NCBI RefSeq assembly: GCF_041381155.1
Contig: NC_091138.1
Span: 38,309,604-38,373,603 of the forward strand
From: Argopecten irradians
Lineage: Eukaryota > Mollusca > Bivalvia > Pectinida > Pectinidae
Direction of reading: 5' to 3'
DNA length: 64,000 nucleotides
This document shows positions 6,901 through 58,221 of this stretch, piece by piece (within the stretch, counting starts at the first letter, position 1; every line of letters starts with the position of its first letter). The translations under genes and the position numbers were made by a program. The notes below the pieces were generated by a model. The model was not told the DNA's origin. It did not search any database and saw only the letters and a program-made list of their open reading frames with translations.

Positions 6901-9900
6901 GCGAACATGGTGCCGTCCAACAATATCATTCCGTTATAGAGATCGATATTTAATCTCCGGAATCAATTATGACCCGTCATTATACCTCCTCATAGTATTG
7001 TTGACATTTTCAATCCAGTGATCAAAGTTCTATCTTTAATTTTGTTGGTAGATATTGACGCTTACACTTTATACTTGTATTTCCGTGTGTTTGGCGCGAG
7101 AAATATATATGTTGGTATGGCGATATTCCTTTACTCGTTGGTCTCCCGGGCAAAACTGAATGGAATTCGTTTTCTGGTTTCTATGTTTCAGTGAAAATTT
7201 GACCCGAGCGAGAGCAGAAATAACTTACAGAAAAAAAACCTAAAATGGTTAAAATCGTGTGAATATAGAAAAACGACTTAATGAAATTAATTAATACGGT
7301 CATGTAGACAGTTTTACCTGTACGTAGATATATTTTTATCGAAATCGATCTCTACACTGTCGACAGAGCATTAACGATACTCATCATTTGAACAATAATT
7401 GGTGTTTATTCGTGCATATATATACATGTATGTCTAATTAACACAAAAAATAATATAAAATAATTTATTTTGCTTTTGGTGTATGTGCAATCAATACTTT
7501 ATTCCATAAAGAACATAGTACCACGGATTTTTTTCAGGACGCAATTATGTTCGATATATTTATCTTGAAGTAAAGTAAAATTAGAAGCTCAAACTTTTCA
7601 AATAATTCGTCTGCTCCTGTTTTTGATAGAGCGAATCTTTAAAATATAATTGATTTCATTATTTCTGTTACTTTCATGTATGTTCACAGAGAAGTTCAAA
7701 CGTGTTGTTAGAGGATTATTCGAATGTTAAGACCAGATCGTGTTGAAATACTAAAGAATTAATATTATTTAGCATTTAAAATTAGTTTGTCAGAAATGTA
7801 TGGCTATGTTTTCTTCTCGACAGATATGAGAAAGAAAACCATGTGCGACGAAGGGGACCAAAACCCAAGAAGATGCGATTGCAGGTATAATGGTGCTTTG
7901 GTCTTCATAATACGACAAATATGTGTGTTTCTATAGATACCACAGGGATCTGAGTAAAGTACTTATACGATTTACCGTCGATTAGTTCCACCTTTGGGTA
8001 ATGGAGACATCATATTTTTATGTGGTTTTTGTGACGTCACAAAAGGTGGGATTAGTCGACGGTAAATTGTACTTACTACTCGTTTTGGTGTCTCGAAACC
8101 CCTTTATCACCAACATTGCATTAGGTTGACCTGCACATTGTCCGACTTTGACATCTGTACGATTGATTCTAGCACCTTTTTGTATTGATGTAGATTTCGA
8201 TAGATTGCTTTCATTACAAATGTTTGACTGGCGAATACTTTGCAAGCTTTTTCCATAAAGATCCCTGTTTCAACTAAACGTATGCTCAAAAGGTACTGGT
8301 ATACCCAAGCCTAACCTACGGTGGCTGGGAGCGGACATGAAATGAATAAAATTATTGCGTGGGAACGAAATATCATTGCGTGGGAACGAAATATTATTGC
8401 GTGGGAACGAAATACTATTGCGTTCGGACGAAATACTATTGCGTGGGAACGAAATATTATTGCATGGGAACGAAAAACTATTGCGTTCGAACGAAATATT
8501 GCGTGGGAACGAAATATTATTGTGTGGGAACGAAATATTATTGCGTGGGAACGAAACATTATTGCCTGGGAACGAAATATTTTTGCGTGGGAACGAAATA
8601 TTATTGCATGTGGACGAAATATTATTGCGTGCGAACGAAACGAAATATTTACTATTTCAAATGTGGCAGTCTGCAATTTCATATCAATATTCTTTGTTAT
8701 TGGTCATTTAAAGTAGTTTTGTGTAAACCTTCTTAATTAAGTATATCTTATATAGTATATTTTTCTTTAAAACCATTAATGTAAAGTTTATTGCATATAT
8801 TGTTTGGATTTGTATTCTATTTCAGTATTTGCCTTCAATGATTTGCATTAAAATAGCAGAAAAGTCATGGAAGTTCATTGTTTTACTTTTTAAAATTAGT
8901 TGACTTAGTATTGATACAAAATAATGTCCGTTGTAACACAATTAACACATATTCAAATGGAAATATTGAAACTTAATAACCCGATGTATTACATCATATA
9001 TATACAGTATATAAAAGCACATAGACTGCTTTTATTTCCGGCAGCGTATAAGGACCAAAAAATAATTTTATTTATCATGTTCGTACAAATCTTGTACGTA
9101 TAACTTAGTATTTTATTAGTATCTATTGTTACTGTATCGTGTACGTTTGTACGTACGTATGCACAAACTATTATCTTGTACGTTTGTACGTACATCGTTG
9201 TATCATGTACGTACAGCTAGTATCTTGTACGTAGGAATTAGTATCTTGCACATTTACATGTTTAGATACTATGTTGTACGTACAAGATAAATAAATACAA
9301 TTATATTTATTTAATTGAATATATAAAGTATTATACAATAAACAAAACCTTAAATCGTTGAAAATAAGGAAAACATCTTTTTTTTAGATAAGGTGCCGTT
9401 TCATAAGTTCAAGGACGTATATGAATCCTTGATAAGTTGTAGGCCATATCATATTACTACGGTGGCATGATTACTGTCATATCATCCATGTATAATAATG
9501 AGCTTGATAGTTATTTCGTTTGAACTCAATAATTATTTGGTTCGAACACATTAATATTTCGTTCCCACGCAATAATATTTCGTTCGCACGCAATAATTAT
9601 TTCGTTCGAACGCAATGATTTTATTTATTTCTTGTCCGCTCCCAGCCACCGTACTAACCATATCACAGAGATCTAAGATTAAATTATGGTAAATTCATAC
9701 TCTGGAGTCTTGAGTGGGACGACTGATTTGCCAGTTATCCGAATAATGTGATAGGTATGTTGCTTAGTGTAGCACTTTAAAAAGGGCAGGCAACAGTTCC
9801 ACTATACAAGAAGACACAACATAAATACATGTATACCGCAGTCTCCCAAAACACGAACCATTTCATAAACACAACACATCACATATATTGGAGACCGTAC

Positions 9901-32500: not shown

Positions 32501-35500
32501 TTCTGTCTGGGTGTATAGATTAGATAGACGTCAGATTACAATTGATAGCCTACCGTCAGTAGGATAACTAAAAAACGATGTTAGTACAACAAGACACCAT
32601 CAGACGATGAGGAATGGCGAGAGCAGAAATACGTATGTAAATACGACTACTGGTACATAACCAAATAGGACTAGTAAACTTTAAATGGTAGAACTTCAAG
32701 ATATTGGACGCACCAGGATCTCACTCATTCATAGATTTGTTTTGCGATATAAAATGTACTTTGCCAGAAAAATCCCGAGGATATTAGCCTACATCTAGGA
32801 GAGGTGAAAGCAGAAGTACGCATCTTTATAAGACTAGTTGGAACCTAACTTTGACTTCACTCAAAAAGCTCCATTTAAAATTGGGAATGACCATCCAAGC
32901 AGTAGATTACAAGAATGCAAGAACCACAATTGCAAAGAAGATTCCGAGGATGTTAGACAAGATTTAGATATTGACTAAACTTTATCGTCGGATATGGCAC
33001 TGTTGGACTTTCTTATTCCGGAACTTACCTTTGTACCTTTTTGGGGCGTTGCATTTTAACCCCTAATGCTTTGTTGATAGCGACGATGAGTGGGTATTTT
33101 TGTCCGTTACATGATCCAGTGAAGTCGTCTAAATCCAATGACCAGATCATGATGCCACCAAATCCACTGTTTATTATATATTTCACCTGAACAAAGAAGC
33201 ATTAGTGCACTGTCTTAATGGCATGTTTACCATTATCATCCGTATATAAATGTCATTTTTGTTATACTACTAAAGAAAGGATAAGGCATGAAAAACATGG
33301 AGATTTAAATATATTCCCCAATATGTTAGTGACAAAGTGTCAGCTAGAAAGCCACCGTCTAATTACTATGTTTCCCCTTATTTGAGACTATAACAACTAA
33401 ATGAGATGTTGATTTTAAAATATGAATCAAATATGCTCACAATTATCCATACAGAAAATACATTTATAATTTGAATTTCAGTTATTCACTGTCTTCAAAA
33501 CGATAACCATTGTATAAATTACTGTGACGTTCCAATGAAATTGGTCCAACAGTTAAGATGTTACAGACAGATTCCAGAAACCCACCATAATTTCGTTAAG
33601 GGTCGATATCAAAGTTTTTCTCTGATACATCTGACATATATACATTACCTTTGTCCACAGACTATATAAAAGTTTTCCTCTGATACTTCTGACATATATA
33701 CATTACCTTTGTCCTCAGACTATATAAAAGTTTTCCTCTGATACTTCTGACATATATCCATTACCTTTGTCCACAGACTATATAAAGTTTTCCTCTAATG
33801 CTTCTGATATATATCCATTACCTTTGTCCTCAGACTATATAAAACTTTCCTCTGATACTTCTGACATATATACATTACATTTGTCCTCAGACTATATAAA
33901 AGTTTTCCTCTGATACTTCTGACATATATACATTACCTTTGTCCTCAGACTATATAAAAGTTTTCCTCTGATACTTCTGACATATATACATTACCTTTGT
34001 CCTCAGACTATATAAAGTTTTCCTCTAATGCTTCTGACATATATCCATTACCTTTGTCCTCAGACTATATAAAACTTTCCTCTGATACTTCTGACATATA
34101 TACATTACATTTGTCCTCAGACTATATAAAAGTTTTCCTCTGATACTTCTGACATATATCCATTACCTTTGTCCTCAGACTATATAAAAGTTTTCCTCTG
34201 ATACTTCTGACATATATACATTACCTTTGTCCTCAGACTATATAAAGTTTTCCTCTAATGCTTCTGACATATATCCATTACCTTTGTCCTCAGACTATAT
34301 AAAAGTTTTCCTCTGATACTTCTGACATATATACATTACATTTGTCCTCAGACTATATAAAAGTTTTCCTCTGATACTTCTGACATATATACATTACCTT
34401 TGTCCACAGACTATATAAAGTTTTCCTCTAATGCTTCTGACATATATACATTACCTTACAGACTATATAAAAGTTTTCCTCTAATACTTCTGACATATAT
34501 ACATTACCTTTGTCCTCAGAGTATATACAAGTTTTCCTCTGATACGTCTGACATATATACATTACCTTTGTCCTCAAACTATATAAATGTTTTCCTCTAA
34601 TACTTGTGACATATATACATTACCTTTGTCCTCAGACTATATAAAGTTTTCCTCTAATACTTCTGACATATATACATTACCTTTGTCCTCAGACCATATA
34701 AAAGTTTCCTTTGATACTTCTGACATATACCTTTGTCCTCAGACTATATAAAAGTTTTTCTCCGATACTTCTGACATATATACATTACCTTTGTCCTCAG
34801 ACTATATAAAGGTTTCCTCTGATACTTCTGACATATATACATTACCTTTGTGGTCAGACTCGTCTCATCATCATAACCAATCCACTGATCACCATCTACA
34901 ATGTAGGGTACTTTCTGGTCTTCGATTAGATAGGTCTTCACACCAGGCTTCTTTCTCTTCTCACAGATCTGAAGACAAGTGCAACAATTCAATTAAGTGA
35001 GTAATTGGTGATTTAGAAATTCTGGTTGATCAAATATACTTTTTAAGAACGTGTAAATATAGGCAAATCTGATACATGTACAGTAACACTTGTCACACCG
35101 ACCACCTGCTTTACTTAATACGACCACTTTTCTACTGTCCCAAGTGACCAATTTTCATACATCTCTACCGAAGTGTCTAAACACTACTTAAGTATAAAAT
35201 CATTTTCTCTGTCCCTTGGGTGGTCTTCATGGACCGGTTTGACTATTCATAATGGTTAGTCAGTTTTGATGTCAATCGTACATGACAAAGTGAAACAGAA
35301 TCAGCGTATTTTCACAAAATATGCTAGTGGCCTTTGCCATACCTCATAGTATGACAAAAATCCTTCCTCACGGGTAAATTTTCCTCCTTTTCCTTTCTTT
35401 GCGGGGGCACCTACACCGTACTCAGATGGGTCAGTGAGGGTAAAAGATCGGCCATACACTGCGAGCCCGATGTTTAGCTTATGTTTGGGCACTCCCATCT

Positions 35501-38500
35501 TAAACCAGTAGTCGGCGGCCCATGCCTGTAAAACCAAGGCTGTATGGATTAAATTATATTTCCATCCGGCCAATATATGGCAATGAGATTTTAGAGAGAA
35601 CAAACAGAAGACAATTCAAATTAAGTTTTGTTGTCTTCGTCTCCGGTAGTAGAAAAGACCAAGAGTGCAATGATCCTTGAAACTAAAATACAGAAAAAGG
35701 GTTTTTACATATATCTATAATGCATAATCTATATATACTTCGAGACTGCTTCTCAAGTAGACATTAAAGGTATAAATGTTTGAAAACCAAACATTTTACT
35801 TTCCACTTCTTCAATATAGACACGTCATATTAGTGGAAATAGCAAACAAATTCATGCTGCAAATGTTTCCTTTTTCCAATACATCAACTTACCAAATTTA
35901 GGAACTTTTCGTTTCCTCTTTCCCATCTCCCCCTAAACAATGGACTGTTATGGCCTGTCTTTTTCTCCCAGCCTCCATGAAGATCATATGTCATCACACT
36001 GATAAAGTCCATGTATCTGCAATAGATTATAGTACCGGAAACATGAATACTTTCGCGTGTTGATGTTTTCGCTCAGTCATCCTTCATATTATCAACGCTG
36101 TGATGTTTTATCCGTTATGACTAAATTATTATTTCACGGTGACAATCAATGCTTGATGATATGGTCGCTAGTACATGTGATCGCAGAGATTTAATGAATT
36201 TATTAATTAATTAATTTATAATTTGATTTATTGTTTTATAAATGAAATATGTAGTAACATTTTTTCAGTTTTTCTCACACTTCCCATGAAATTGTGATCG
36301 CGTCAGCCATTAACATAGTGGAATTGAATCATTTTGGCAAAACTGGAGATTGATGCAATATCAAAATGATAAACATATAAAATGTATGGAAGGATATATG
36401 GCGATAACTTTATCTGATGAATGATATTTTCGATAATTTATAGTAATTGTCTTAAAATAATGCCTTAGTTTAAATTTTAAAAGTTTAAATTAATGACTTC
36501 TATGATTATGTGTTCTATTTACATTAAGTAAATGTCTATAGTTTTTCGTTGATCTAACATCCTGTTCCTCTATAAGTAGACCAGCGATATCTCAGAGTTT
36601 GAACTAACCTGCCTATCTCGGCTATCTCGTATGCTTTGTCGATAGTTTCCTTCCCTGCCGCCACTGCAGCTGTGAGAAGAAGGCGTGGTTTGCCCGTGAT
36701 CTTTGACTCCTTACTAAACTCATCATATAGTTCCTGATTGTTGTTAAAACAAAAATATTAAAAGCATTAAAAACTCATTTGATTTTTCTATTATTTAAAA
36801 AAACACCTTCCTGAGTGAATCCTTATTTGCTTGAAATCACTAATAGACACTCATCAGATATACAAACAGATGATACATATTGGGACATAGAGACGAACTG
36901 ATAAGTTGTAAGAGTCGTCCCAACTCATTCTTCTTTGAGGCCCGTCACTTCAGCGTTCGAAGGTTCGAAATATCTTAGCTTTTTGAATACTAGAAGTCTT
37001 GAATGTTAATTCTTTGACGCCTTTCTTGTTAATCACATTTGATGTCTGTCTTGTAGAATGAAAATCAAAGTCGCTTCTTATTTGAACAGTATTTGTAGCT
37101 TTTAATTCAAGCATACTTCTAACATAATATTCCTAGACCTCTTTGTTTTACAGCGACAGACAACAATGAGAGACTAATATAATCTTTCCCTATCTTGAGG
37201 GTAGGACAGGGAAATCTCTACCCGAGGAGGAGATTCAAGATTGGCTAACTCGAGGCTTGCCGAGGGTTAGACTGCCGTGAATCTCTTCCGAGGGTAGATA
37301 TTTTCCTATCCTACTCTCTAGGTAGGGAATGATCCTTTTTCTGCCAATGTAGTTTCCAAAACAGTTAAAATCTACCTACGCGATTGAAAAAAGCGAAGAC
37401 ATATACCTTTATTTATTTATTAAACTGTGTCAAATTGGAGACTTTTTTAATACTCAACACCTTTGTTAAAGCCGCTGTACTATGACAAATAAGAATCTAA
37501 ATCATTTTGAAATATTTCAAGTCAAAGAAATTTAAATTGAATCAAACCGTTTAAATACAGCGTTTTCGCTGGTACAACAGAATAAGTGAAGACAGGTTGA
37601 CATTCGACTGCGATGATCATCATGTCAAAGTTTAGTAGGTGCGTGAAGCATAAACTCAAGGTTGACATAGAATGTCCAATTGGACTGCACAGGTTAATAT
37701 CTATTTGCATATGAAGTATTACAACTTCCGGTTTATCACGCGAATATGTTCGACGCGTGCAGGCTGTCTTGCCCTGGGTAAGACAGAGAAATCTTACCGC
37801 CACCGGAAGCCTAAATATCTCTTTCCGATGGGGTAGAAATTGGCGTCTGAGATATATCATATACAAAAGACCTATTGAGACTTAAGCGTAAATTATCTTT
37901 TATGCTCTCGTTTGCTCACCGTTGGGCTATGTTCACATGTATGATATATGCTCATGTTTGTATTTTAATTTGATATTCAAATGCTTATTAATGGCGTTAG
38001 AATATGCCTCACCTTGACTAGCTTGGTGAACCTTGCTTTGTCTGCCGCAGGACTACCTCTGTTTCCAGGATATTCCCAATCAAGATCGAGACCGTCAAAG
38101 CCACGTGACCTCATGAACTTTACAGCAGAGGTTATAAATATGCGGCGGTTGGCAGGAGTCTCAACCATTTGTGTGAATGGTTCAGAGCCCATGTTCCACC
38201 CACCAACGGCTATCAGAGTCTTTAATTCGGGATTCACATTCTTCAAATCATTGACTTTGTCGAACCTGATAGATGCAAGTAATAAATAGAAGTCATTGTT
38301 TGTACCGTTGAGGTTAACAGATTATCAGACAAAATGATAGTTAAAATCGTGTTGTTTGGTTACATGGACCATCAATTCAAGCAGCATGAATGTTGAACGT
38401 TAAAGGAAATGGAATTTCCTGAATTGCGGACATTTCAATTATTATGCTTTAAATTCCAAAAGCCACATTCCCTGTGTGTTCGGTTGTGCGTCAGTGTTTT

Positions 38501-39255
38501 ACAAGGCTGTGTTATGTTTCTCGTTATTCGGGAAAAGGTTTTATTACGACAAGGAGACACAACCCGAATACATACTGTAGCCTGCCAAACATTTACACAC
38601 ACAACCCATTGCATACAGGGGAAGGAGGCCGTCCCTAAGCCTAAACAAAAGACATCTTGTAAAGTGAATGCCTAAATTTTCTGAAAATAGTTTGGTTTAC
38701 GAGATATACCAGCCTATTTAACAGCTCTCATGAGATACATCTAAAAGAAATACCTTGCAATACTCACATTCCTTTCGACCATTCCGTGGAGTCATCGTTC
38801 CATTCAAACGGAGTCAGTGCATGATTTGTTAGTTTAGCGAATGAATACACAATATGAGTGCATAATCGATCGTCAATGTTGTCCGGAGTATACTTCCCGA
38901 TCTTAGGTCTATATTGAGCCCAGTTTGTATAATAACATACCCTTCTCATACCATAAGCCCCTGCAATCAAGAAAAATTAGATTTATTGACAACACTAATC
39001 CTTGTATCATTAATATTATTCCAAAGAAAATGAATCGTGATGAAATTGCCGACACCGTAAAGTAATGAATTCTTTACGTATTTTCGTTTTGAAATCGATG
39101 GGATACCATTTTACGCGTGTAAATTACTAAATATTCATTTCTCAATTGTGAAAACAAACATATTATATAGTTAATGCTAACAATCGGTATACATACTTAC
39201 CAAACACCATGGACATAAACAAAAGCCAGAGCGAGTCTTTGTAGTAATGTTTCAT
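29521..39255 (-). CDS. Secreted GH18 chitinase with two chitin-binding (CBM14) domains
   Basis: Eleven coding exons on the minus strand: 39255-39201, 38960-38768, 38265-38013, 36733-36609, 36016-35893, 35525-35343, 34968-34846, 33186-33029, 32506-32424, 31861-31097, 29708-29521. All junctions are GT-AG and in phase, giving 749 residues. Residues 1-20 form a signal peptide (hydrophobic WLLFMSMVF). The GH18 barrel (about 24-400) shows [13 protein letters not shown], the substrate-cleft LIAVGGWN, the catalytic DGLDLDWE (D140, D143, D145, proton donor E147), [31 protein letters not shown] and [15 protein letters not shown]. It hydrolyses chitin outside the cell. CBM14 domains with six cysteines each lie at about 445-490 and 696-748, separated by a Pro/Gln-rich linker of about 200 residues. 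Likely roles are digestion, shell or cuticle remodelling, or immunity. The ATG follows a CAG acceptor-like sequence, so an upstream non-coding exon is possible. Confidence 0.94.
30178..30275 (-). mobile_element. Highly decayed SINE fragment
   Basis: Segments AAAGACACCGAG, TCGTCCTATTCCCGGA and GCCAAGCAGAAATAGAAATT match the complementary central part of the SINE with an internal deletion. It lies in the last chitinase intron. Confidence 0.5.
30538..30660. promoter_or_regulatory. Cluster of three TCACGTGAC sites inside a chitinase intron
   Basis: TCACGTGAC occurs three times in about 80 bases (near 30544, 30564 and 30613), followed on the plus strand by CAACATGGCGGCATTGTC, a YY1-like/initiator-like sequence. 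This looks like a compact promoter, possibly for a transcript opposite to the chitinase, with a GTGAGT splice donor further on at about 30878. No protein of known family follows. Confidence 0.4.
31862..33028. other. Chitinase introns flanking exon 32424-32506
   Basis: Non-coding apart from the 83-base exon. A loose duplication is visible near 32135-32200 (CTGGCTACATGGTATATTG and CTAGCTACACCGGCATATTG). Nothing else recognised. Confidence 0.4.
33605..34845 (-). repeat. 58-bp minisatellite derived from a chitinase exon-intron junction
   Basis: About 21 tandem units of 57-58 bases fill most of the chitinase intron between exons 34968-34846 and 33186-33029. Read in the gene's direction each unit contains GTCTGAGGACAAAGGTAATG, nearly identical to the real exon end GTCTGACCACAAAG followed by the real donor GTAATG. 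The array therefore arose by amplification of the last 14 or so coding bases plus about 44 intron bases, and abuts the true donor directly. Most units keep GTAATG after AAAG or AAAT. Confidence 0.92.
35081..35244. mobile_element. Small pogo/Tigger-like MITE
   Basis: Starts after TA with CAGTAACACTTGTCACACCG, contains ACGACCACTTTTCT, and ends GGTCTTCATGGACCGGTTTGACT before TA. This arrangement is typical of short pogo-derived MITEs. It lies in the chitinase intron 34969-35342. Confidence 0.65.
36734..38012. other. Chitinase intron 3
   Basis: The 1.3-kb intron between the exon with the catalytic motif and the next one. It contains a foldback element at 37187-37328; nothing else is recognised. 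Confidence 0.6.
37187..37328. mobile_element. Foldback MITE
   Basis: TCCCTATCTTGAGGGTAGGA at the left pairs imperfectly with the complement of the right end (CTCTCTAGGTAGGGA). The arms continue to a centre near GGCTTGCCGAGGG, so nearly the whole 142 bases is self-complementary. Confidence 0.65.
38490..38640 (+). mobile_element. SINE fragment (3' part)
   Basis: Contains ACAAGGAGACACAACCCGAATACAT, a decayed CTGCCAAACA block and GCATACAGGGGAAGGAGGCCGTCC. It lies in the chitinase intron between the first and second GH18 exons. Confidence 0.6.
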
Positions 39256-51992: not shown

Positions 51993-53416
51993 TTGCTTTT
52001 TTACAAAGATTACACGTGTAGTCTACTTTGTATACAGATATGTTTTTAAAAAGATTACACGTGTAGTTTACTTTTGTATACAGATATGTTTTTACAAAGA
52101 TTACACGTGTAGTTTACTTTTGTATACAGATATGTTTTTACAAAGATTACACGTGTAGTTTACTTTTGTATACAGATATGTTTTTACAAAGATTACACGT
52201 GTAGTTTACTTTTGTATACAGATATGTTTTTACAAAGATTACACGTGTAGTTTACTTTTGTATACAGATATGTTTTTACAAAGATTACACGTGTAGTTTA
52301 CTTTTGTATACAGATATGTTTTTACAAAGATTACACGTGTAGTCTACTTTTGTATACAGATATGTTTTTACAAAGATTACACGTGTAGTTTACTTTTGTA
52401 TACAGATATGTTTTTACAAAGATTACACGTGTAGTTTACTTTTGTATACAGATATGTTTTTACAAAGATTACACGTGTAGTTTACTTTTGTATACAGATA
52501 TGTTTTTACAAAGATTACACGTGTAGTTTACTTTTGTATACAGATATGTTTTTACAAAGATTACACGTGTAGTTTACTTTTGTATACAGATATGTTTTTA
52601 CAAAGATTACACGTGTAGTTTACTTTTGTATACAGATAGATTTTTACAAAGATTACACGTGTAGTTTACTTTTGTATACAGATATGTTTTTACAAAGATT
52701 ACACGTGTAGTCTACTTTTGTATACAGATATGTTTTTACAAAGATTACACGTGTAGTTTACTTTTGTATACAGATATGTTTTTACAAAGATTACACGTGT
52801 AGTTTATTTTTGTATACAGATATGTTTTACAAAGATTACACGTGTAGTTTACTTTTGTATACAGATAGAATTTTACAAAGATTACACGTGTAGTCTACTT
52901 TACAGATATATTTTTACAAAGATAACATGTGTAGCCTACTTTTGTATACAGATATGTTTTTACAAAGATTACACGTGTAGTCTACTCTTGTATACAGATA
53001 TGTTTTTACAAAGATTACACGTGTAGTTTACTTTTGTATAAAGATATGTTTTTACAAAGATTACACGTGTAGTTTGCTTTTGTATACAGATATGTTTTTA
53101 CAAAGATTACACGTGTAGTCTAATTTTGTATACAGTTAGATTTTTCACAAGGATTACACGTGTAGTCTACTTTTGTATACAGATATATTTTTACAAAGAT
53201 CACATGTGTAGCCTACTTTTGTATACAGATATGTTTTTGCAAAGATTACACGTGTAGTCTACTTTTGTATACATATAGATTTTTACAAAGATTACACGTG
53301 TAGTCTACTTTTGTTTTCAGATAGATTTTTTACAAAGATAACATGTGTAGCCTACTTTTGTATACAGATATATTTTTACAAAGATTACACGTGTAGTCTA
53401 CTTTTGTATACAGATA
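51993..53416 (+). repeat. 46-bp minisatellite with an E-box in each unit
   Basis: About 31 tandem units of TTTTTACAAAGATTACACGT-GTAGTTTACTTTTGTATACAGATATG type. The left half is nearly uniform; from about 52860 rightward the units diverge (CACATGTG, TTTTCAG variants), as expected when homogenisation acts on one side. Most units carry the palindrome ACACGTGT. Confidence 0.93.
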
Positions 53417-57060: not shown

Positions 57061-57389
57061 TTGTACTGGACATTTACGTCAGATGAAGGTATCATTTACG
57101 TTTGTTATATCCCTATAAAATAGTTCCTATATAAACTCTATTGCCAAAAATGCCAAAAAATGAACTGTTCCGTCGAGCGGTCCAACGAACTGTTAAAATC
57201 GACTGTTAAAATGTGCTGTTGGACTGGAGTGACGCCACACCTACAATTCGTGACGTCAATGAATTGTTTTGAGTCAATGGGTATAACAAAACAGTTATCG
57301 ACTGGGTTTTCGGCCTCGGGCAACAGTTTGTCTTCGGGTTCAACAAATCATCTGTTGCCCTCAACCCCAGTCAACAACTGTATACTGTT

Positions 57390-58212
57390 GAAGGTAACAT
57401 TTACGTGTGATGAAGGTAACATTTACGTCAGATGAAGGTAACATTGACGTCAGATGAAGGTAACATTTACGTCTGATGAAGGTAACATTTACGTCTGATG
57501 AAGGTAACATTTACGTCTGATGAAGGTAACATTTACGTCAGATGAAGGTAACATTACGTCAGATGAAGGTAACATTTACGTCAGATGAAGGTAACATTTA
57601 CGTCTGATGAAGGTAACATTTACGTCAGATGAAGGTAACATTTACGTCTAATGAAGGTAACATTTACGTCTAATGAAGGTAACATTTACCTCTGATGAAG
57701 GTACGATTACGTCTGATAAATGTAACATTTACGTCTGATGAATGTTTTGTTTGTTTGATTAATTAACGTCCTATTAACAGCTATGGTCATGTAAGGACGG
57801 CCTCCCATGTATGCAGTGTGTTGCGTGTATGTTGCGCGAGGTTCGTGTTTTGGGAGACTGCGGTATATTCGTGTTGTGTCTTCTTGTATAGTGGAACTGT
57901 TGCCCTTTTTATAGTGCTATATCACTGAAACATGCCGCCGAAGACACCAGGCGTGAAGGTAACATTTACGTCTGATGAAGGTAACATTTACGTCTAATGA
58001 AGGTAACATTTACGTCAGATGAAGGTAACATTTACGTCAGATGAAGGTAACATTTACCTCTGATAAAGGTACCATTACGTCTGATAAATGTAACATTTAC
58101 GTCTAATGAAGGTAACATTTACGTCAGATGAAGGTAACATTTACGTCTGATGAAGGTAACATTTACGTCAGATGAAGGTAACATTTACGTCTAATGAAGG
58201 TAATATTTACGT
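57390..58212 (+). repeat. 21-22-bp minisatellite, split by a SINE
   Basis: About 28 units of GATGAAGGTAACATTTACGTCA, with CT or TA in place of CA in many, run from 57390 to 57742 and from 57953 to 58212, with the SINE fragment 57743-57952 between. A lone related unit (ACGTCAGATGAAGGTATC) near 57076-57095 suggests the origin. Many units contain TTACGTCA, a CRE-like octamer. Confidence 0.9.
57743..57952 (-). mobile_element. SINE, 5'-truncated, inserted in the minisatellite
   Basis: Starts (minus-strand tail) at TTTTGTTTGTTTGATTAATT and runs to GCCGCCGAAGACACCAGG, after which the array resumes. Truncation of the head end is the usual result of incomplete reverse transcription. Confidence 0.85.
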
Positions 58213-58221
58213 CTAATGATT

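Follow-up and report, generated by a model that had tools for sequence, protein, structure and literature searches.

Tandem repeats that span an exon-intron boundary are known from amphioxus as 'mirage' minisatellites and have been described in Adh3, troponin C, the globin genes BflGb6 and BflGb9, and PGBD5 (PMC3087553, PMC3902484). According to the parts of these two reports used here, mirages lie across the donor or the acceptor side of an exon, have units of 10-160 bp with AG/GT signals in many of them, and combine a homogenized interior with divergent boundary units (PMC3087553, PMC3902484). They are unstable in length, with BflGb6 haplotypes of 6 and 3 repeats, and have been proposed as a source of new introns (PMC3087553, PMC3902484). 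Regular splicing of the genes that carry them is described as undisturbed, as determined by RT-PCR (PMC3087553).

In humans, the 31-bp VNTR of CBS, c.1444_1467+7(16_21), lies across exon 13 and intron 13 in 16-21 copies, and by its notation each unit comprises 24 nt of the exon end and 7 nt of the donor and intron start (PMC2630376, PMC1395315). The VNTR is polymorphic in people and, in the sections of these sources that concern it, is cited as being linked to enzyme activity (PMC2630376, PMC1395315). A 68-bp duplication of the intron 7/exon 8 junction of CBS is described as giving normal mRNA, with one of the duplicated sites strongly favored (PMC2630376). Internal tandem repeats at exon-intron boundaries have also been reported in recently duplicated human genes, with altered splicing in transcripts (PMC2812944), and the intronic minisatellites of C. 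elegans, as presented in the excerpted part of that report, have no bearing on exon edges (PMC4039745). An exon-edge minisatellite in a mollusc was not found among the matches listed for the open-licence PMC literature, which is weak evidence of absence.

The array analyzed here lies in a window of 64,000 nucleotides, the whole stretch of scallop DNA under study, which corresponds to C5:38309604-38373603 of a genome of 845,758,899 bases (~846 Mb) in 1508 contigs. Over 107/107 residues, a striated-muscle myosin exon from this genome is identical to the PDB chains 1dfk, 1dfl and 1b7t; 1kk7 and 1qvi score equally, whereas 2ec6, 2os8 and 3i5f have lower scores. The top chains are those of bay scallop, which makes a scallop the most likely source and speaks against an amphioxus. 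Searches for mollusc haemocyanin (PF14830) and COX1 gave 0 matches. The array lies in a GH18 chitinase gene on the minus strand, and its exons can be read one by one. The catalytic exons, joined and typed by hand, match Glyco_hydro_18 (PF00704) with E = 5.2e-99, in line with the preliminary description of the gene as a chitinase, and two frames downstream of them match CBM_14, giving the gene the GH18 + CBM_14 combination. The features of the gene around the array are as follows.

35301..38976, minus strand: upstream GH18 exons of the array-bearing gene, within the stop-to-stop frames 38764-38976, 37977-38321, 36554-36757, 35884-36072 and 35301-35615.
34846..34968, minus strand: coding exon of 123 nt, 41 codons, phase 0 end, last residues SLTTK, compared with 29 homologous exons of the same genome.
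34846..34860, minus strand: last 15 nt of this exon, AGTCTGACCACAAAG, which are also the first piece of the array and match the unit consensus AGTCTGAGGACAAAG at 13/15 positions.
34840..34845, minus strand: authentic splice donor GTAATG, assigned by homology, its position being common to the donors of the 29 paralogous exons.
33606..34860, minus strand: minisatellite with 22 units, 50-58 bp in length, built from 15 exonic nt, the donor and the beginning of the intron, from TRF and unit alignment.
33187..34845, minus strand: host intron of 1659 nt, 75% of which is array.
33029..33186, minus strand: next coding exon, with the acceptor TTGTTCAG/GTGAAA.

GH18 chitinases are expanded in this genome, at C5:38.34-38.56, 47.25-47.28 and 1.23-1.37 Mb, C3:31.17-31.29 Mb and C13:31.4-31.6 Mb, with 154 exon-level matches at E up to 10. 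Several of the expanded genes contain apparently coding mucin-like minisatellites of 30-33 bp.

TRF describes the array with a period of 58, 22.0 copies and a 90% match; the remaining TRF rows across 33606-34860 are multiples or parts of this 58-bp array. The 22 units are the authentic exon edge, with its first intron base at 34845, and 21 intronic copies. Each is made up of 15 exonic bases, the donor and 42-43 intronic bases (57/58 bp), so that, as in mirages, the boundary of the adjacent real exon recurs in the tandem units and, as in the CBS VNTR, the unit spans an exon end and its donor. AGTCTGAGGACAAAG, or a sequence close to it, opens almost every copy and precedes the donor; one copy has a shortened exon part, with 11 nt on the exon side. 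The 13 matches of the exon end to the unit consensus are in register, with a chance probability of ~9e-7, and the two mismatches are adjacent bases, CC in the exon versus GG in the array. GTAATG is kept in 20/21 intronic copies; the exception, at 34730, has an internal deletion and reads AAAG/GTATAT. The preliminary description had correctly recognized that every unit contains a real exon end and its donor and that the array touches the true donor, but 'abutting' is too weak a term, since the array extends 15 nt into the exon. Its spacing of about 58 bases is right as an approximation, but not as 58 each time, because the donors are spaced by a mixture of 57 and 58 with one interval of 50 and one of 53.

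The paralogous genes provide a means of placing the exon end and the array in time. An exon-protein search of the scallop's own genome gave 31 matches, 30 of which were examined at their loci (the window exon and 29 others; the weakest match was left out). All 30 exons end in AAG/GT at the same codon, and the paralogues without an array there share this exon end together with much of the preceding motif. When TRF was run on 1.5 kb beyond each of the 29 other exons, no array reaching the exon end was found. With the boundary conserved in all 29 paralogous exons and no array at this edge in any of them, the exon end is the older of the two and the array a later addition. This indicates that the repeats started at the exon edge and expanded into the intron, the local origin and direction put forward at the outset. 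A DNA search of the ~846 Mb genome with the array, by a tool that may under-count repeats, placed 6/6 matches at the 33606-34860 locus; copies elsewhere, away from this exon, had been named as evidence that would speak against a local origin. The remainder of the host intron, 33190-33604, is likewise single in the genome.

The exon that follows the intron was convincingly found downstream in 22 of the 30 loci by motif search, a 23rd hit (L061) being judged false. Since the donor position is common to the paralogues and the downstream exon is found at these loci, the intron predates the array. Introns made from tandem arrays have reportedly been described by Zhuo in 2007. Unlike these, the window intron is old, as indicated by its shared donor position, and the possibility that it was gained from the tandem array was rejected on the finding that all 30 exons have the AAG/GT donor at the same codon. 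The last codons of the exon read SLTTK and those of the array SLRTK. SLR is present in eight paralogues of the same cluster, which use another arginine codon than the array, and threonine at that position is found in other paralogues too; our guess is that the array may preserve an older exon sequence.

The interior of the array has an internal order. Units 9, 13 and 17 have AAAT/GTAATG in common and units 10, 14 and 18 have several other changes in common, so that units 9-18 make up a four-unit (about 230 bp) higher-order repeat. The recurrence every four units indicates that the middle of the array multiplied in four-unit blocks. Private changes are found in the first, exon-proximal and last units. 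The array has thus evolved in concert with the exception of its boundary units, as judged from the alignment rather than from a tree, which is the pattern described for mirages.

Two further arrays of this design were found in paralogous chitinases, and by eye the units of the three arrays are different sequences. At C5:1367957-1368833 (L068), a paralogue carries a donor array of 46 bp x 19.0 copies with a 98% match, in which 30 nt from the end of a different exon and 16 intronic nt make up the unit. The exonic part is identical at 30/30 bases in all 18 decoys, indicating that the array is very young or strongly homogenized, and 18/18 decoy donors end at one shared stop codon. In a third chitinase gene, at C13:31588800-31590800 (L074), the array is on the acceptor side, with 94 bp x 5.0 copies and an 89% match. 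Its unit runs from the end of the intron across the acceptor into about 64 nt of exon, and the last copy is the real exon. The four upstream copies match the first 60 bases of the exon at 53-56 positions, and 4/4 decoy acceptors lead to stops. FINLMTYDF is read in 3/4 of these decoy copies versus FIILMTYDF in the real exon.

The intronic copies in the window present the splicing machinery with 21 decoy donors. The authentic 9-mer AAGGTAATG is identical in 17/21 of them, one has AAGGTATAT and three have AATGTAATG; AG/GT is thus present in 18/21 decoys and AT/GT in 3, that is, in many but not all units, as in mirages. AAGGTAATG is also found at the donor of one paralogue (L041). Splice-site scoring of the units, proposed in the preliminary description, used a paralogue matrix built from 29 sites and a generic matrix built from approximate frequencies, and places the score of the 9-mer within the range of the 29 paralogue donors. 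Splice-site strength was rejected as a discriminator, the authentic donor and 17/21 decoys being identical, as was RNA accessibility, for which the authentic donor has only rank 12 of 22 by prediction. Neither the 9-mer nor the predicted local structure therefore marks the right donor. Exon definition would lead one to expect the first donor and a shortest-intron rule the last. The first donor is probably the one used, because the conserved protein results, and both homology and the open frame point to the use of this authentic site. The coding outcomes of the decoys are as follows.

34783..34788, minus strand: decoy donor 1, at +57 nt, in frame and open, which would insert +19 aa.
33643..34730, minus strand: decoy donors 2-21 (34730 ... 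33648), all of which would read the same stop.

The stop shared by decoys 2-21 would follow 33 inserted codons, after 74 residues counted from the first of the exon. Premature stops would thus result from 20/21 decoys here and from 42/43 across the three arrays. The expectation that most alternative donors would disrupt the enzyme holds for these 20 decoys but not for the nearest one, and the reason given for it, a shift of frame with each unit, is incorrect; decoys 2-21 fail through one and the same stop codon instead.

To place these arrays among the other tandem repeats of the family, the fetched chitinase loci were merged to 37 blocks of 171,518 bp with 196 coding matches, a survey of GH18 loci only. 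Twenty arrays passed a filter of period at least 20 and copies at least 2.8. Seven of these (units of 30, 33, 75 and 99 bp) appear to be linker repeats within coding sequence and were excluded, and 13 were taken as intronic, the labels being assigned by hand from position, unit length and composition. The 13 comprise the 3 arrays straddling an exon edge and 10 others, of which five were read in sequence and five placed by position only; no exon sequence was seen in the units of the five near-exon arrays that were read. Random placement of units of the 13 arrays' lengths over 152 inter-exon gaps predicts 2.73 edge-straddling arrays versus the 3/13 observed (P(>=3) = 0.54). This fits edge arrays being about as frequent as chance placement gives, in a small sample that would miss moderate selection. 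In the window array the donor columns show no significantly higher conservation than the rest (0/6 variable versus 19/58, P 0.08); 39/58 columns are invariant overall, and other invariant runs of 6 and 7 exist. Selection on the decoy donors was accordingly rejected as having no clear signal in the column test, and together the placement and column results do not call for selection.

Across the genome, three consensus donors at intervals of 23-53 bp occur in 12,235 search windows versus 2,242 for the reversed pattern (5.5x), counts that refer to windows and not to arrays, are dominated by large arrays and include ~100 listed from two places. This excess speaks, if anything, against purely random placement, but no conclusion is drawn from it here. 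At C1:1099220-1100135 and C1:2890660-2897056, whose starts lie in L082 and L083, minisatellites of 48 and 41 bp have a consensus AG/GTAAGT donor in many units; on reading both, no exon beside them was proved. The window itself contains further minisatellites. A donor-like ladder is formed at 57385-57742 and again at 57954-58219 by arrays whose 22-bp unit contains GATGAAG/GTAACA; each array is then followed by a copy of one element (TTTGTTTGATT..ACGTCCTATTAACAG...), and no exon was identified beside either. A 46-bp minisatellite of 31 copies with a 93% match is present at 51998-53416, and a 21-bp array, ATTATTGCGTGGGAACGAAAT, at 8351-8640. A similar 21-bp unit, TTATTGCGTGAGAACGCAATT, adjoins a chitinase exon on C3, and the 21-bp unit may for this reason be a dispersed repeat.

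The window array can be explained, in our judgment quite probably, as an exon-edge ('mirage'-type) minisatellite that arose by tandem duplication at the exon edge, spread in the intron and is tolerated as a neutral by-product. A segment of ~58 bp (the exon's last 15 bases, the donor and the first 42-43 intron bases) would have been duplicated in tandem, and the copies would have multiplied within the intron by ordinary minisatellite turnover, through slippage or unequal exchange, partly as ~four-unit blocks of about 230 bp. The first donor would still join the intact exon to the next one, and the arrangement would be tolerated for this reason. The spliceosome would take the donor adjoining the exon body, that is, it would follow exon definition, as neither the 9-mer nor the predicted accessibility favors the authentic donor over most decoys. 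The difference of two adjacent bases (CC versus GG) between exon and units would suit an independent intronic satellite that resembles the exon end by chance or through capture of array sequence by the exon. This reading is barely credible and largely refuted, since paralogues without an array have the AAG/GT end and much of the preceding motif, the 13/15 match in register has a chance probability of ~9e-7, and the array DNA was not found elsewhere in the scallop's own genome. An error of assembly, in the presence of the array or in its copy number, is very improbable; the array is read from a single assembly, but the many private unit variants and the structured four-unit period, the two other arrays of like design with different units in other genes, and the lack of any run of N across the stretch read argue against it.

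A rather unlikely alternative assigns a function to the decoy ladder, which would titrate U1 or be used at a low level, giving unproductive (NMD-prone) transcripts or transcripts with +19 aa, with array length setting enzyme output. The 9-mer shared by 17/21 decoys, the premature stops of 20/21 decoys with the in-frame form from decoy 1, and the stops of 18/18 decoy donors and 4/4 decoy acceptors in the other arrays are all consistent with such a function, as is the human precedent, the 31-bp CBS VNTR over an exon-intron boundary, which is said to have been associated with reduced enzyme activity by Lievers in 2001. On the other side, conservation of the donor columns does not significantly exceed that of the remaining columns, edge arrays are as numerous as geometry alone would give, in a small sample, and amphioxus mirages, as far as they are described in that report, leave regular splicing undisturbed by RT-PCR (PMC3087553). 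No specific function of the array was detected in the conservation and placement tests, and the observations can be explained without assigning a function to the decoys. The roles suggested in the preliminary description, in which the decoys would regulate splicing, slow it or generate noise, found no support in these tests. Decoys may be used to a minor extent, since a link to enzyme activity is reported for the nearest human precedent, the CBS VNTR.

Each of the three arrays amounts to a natural experiment in how a splice site is chosen: sites that are identical or alike recur at regular intervals in competition with one another, and, with one exception, only the exon-adjoining site keeps the protein open. 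If the outermost site is cleanly preferred, the choice must be made by exon definition, since neither the 9-mer nor the predicted structure of the window array makes it. If inner sites are used, array length would be a fast-changing dial on gene output. A wider proposal, which we consider unlikely, is that exon-edge minisatellites are recurrent in the expanded gene families of this bivalve and serve there as splicing rheostats of variable length. If true, each array would hold 4-21 near-identical competing sites, with 42/43 decoys leading to premature stops, and a fast-changing copy number would tune the productive chitinase mRNA of each paralogue.

Exon-edge tandem repeats are a rare, already described kind of sequence, and the window array belongs to it. 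Like the amphioxus mirages, it has units spanning the exon boundary, AG/GT in many of them, a homogenized interior and divergent edge units. In contrast to those mirages, the scallop arrays reach up to 22 units and occur in three cases within one gene family. The CBS VNTR, compared by its notation only, is similar in repeating an exon end, donor and intron start in tandem, but its unit is mostly exonic, whereas that of the window array has 15 exonic nt. The scallop arrays also resemble the repeats of recently duplicated human genes, as far as these are described in the part of the report used here, in their position at a splice boundary, in belonging to recently duplicated families and in their potential for new introns or isoforms (PMC2812944). 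The scallop case extends the known systems in taxon and copy number, in having three examples within one family for which the paralogues serve as outgroup, and by a small first test in which geometry alone accounts for their frequency. It also suggests that mirage-type repeats are present in molluscs and originate about as frequently as expected from random placement.
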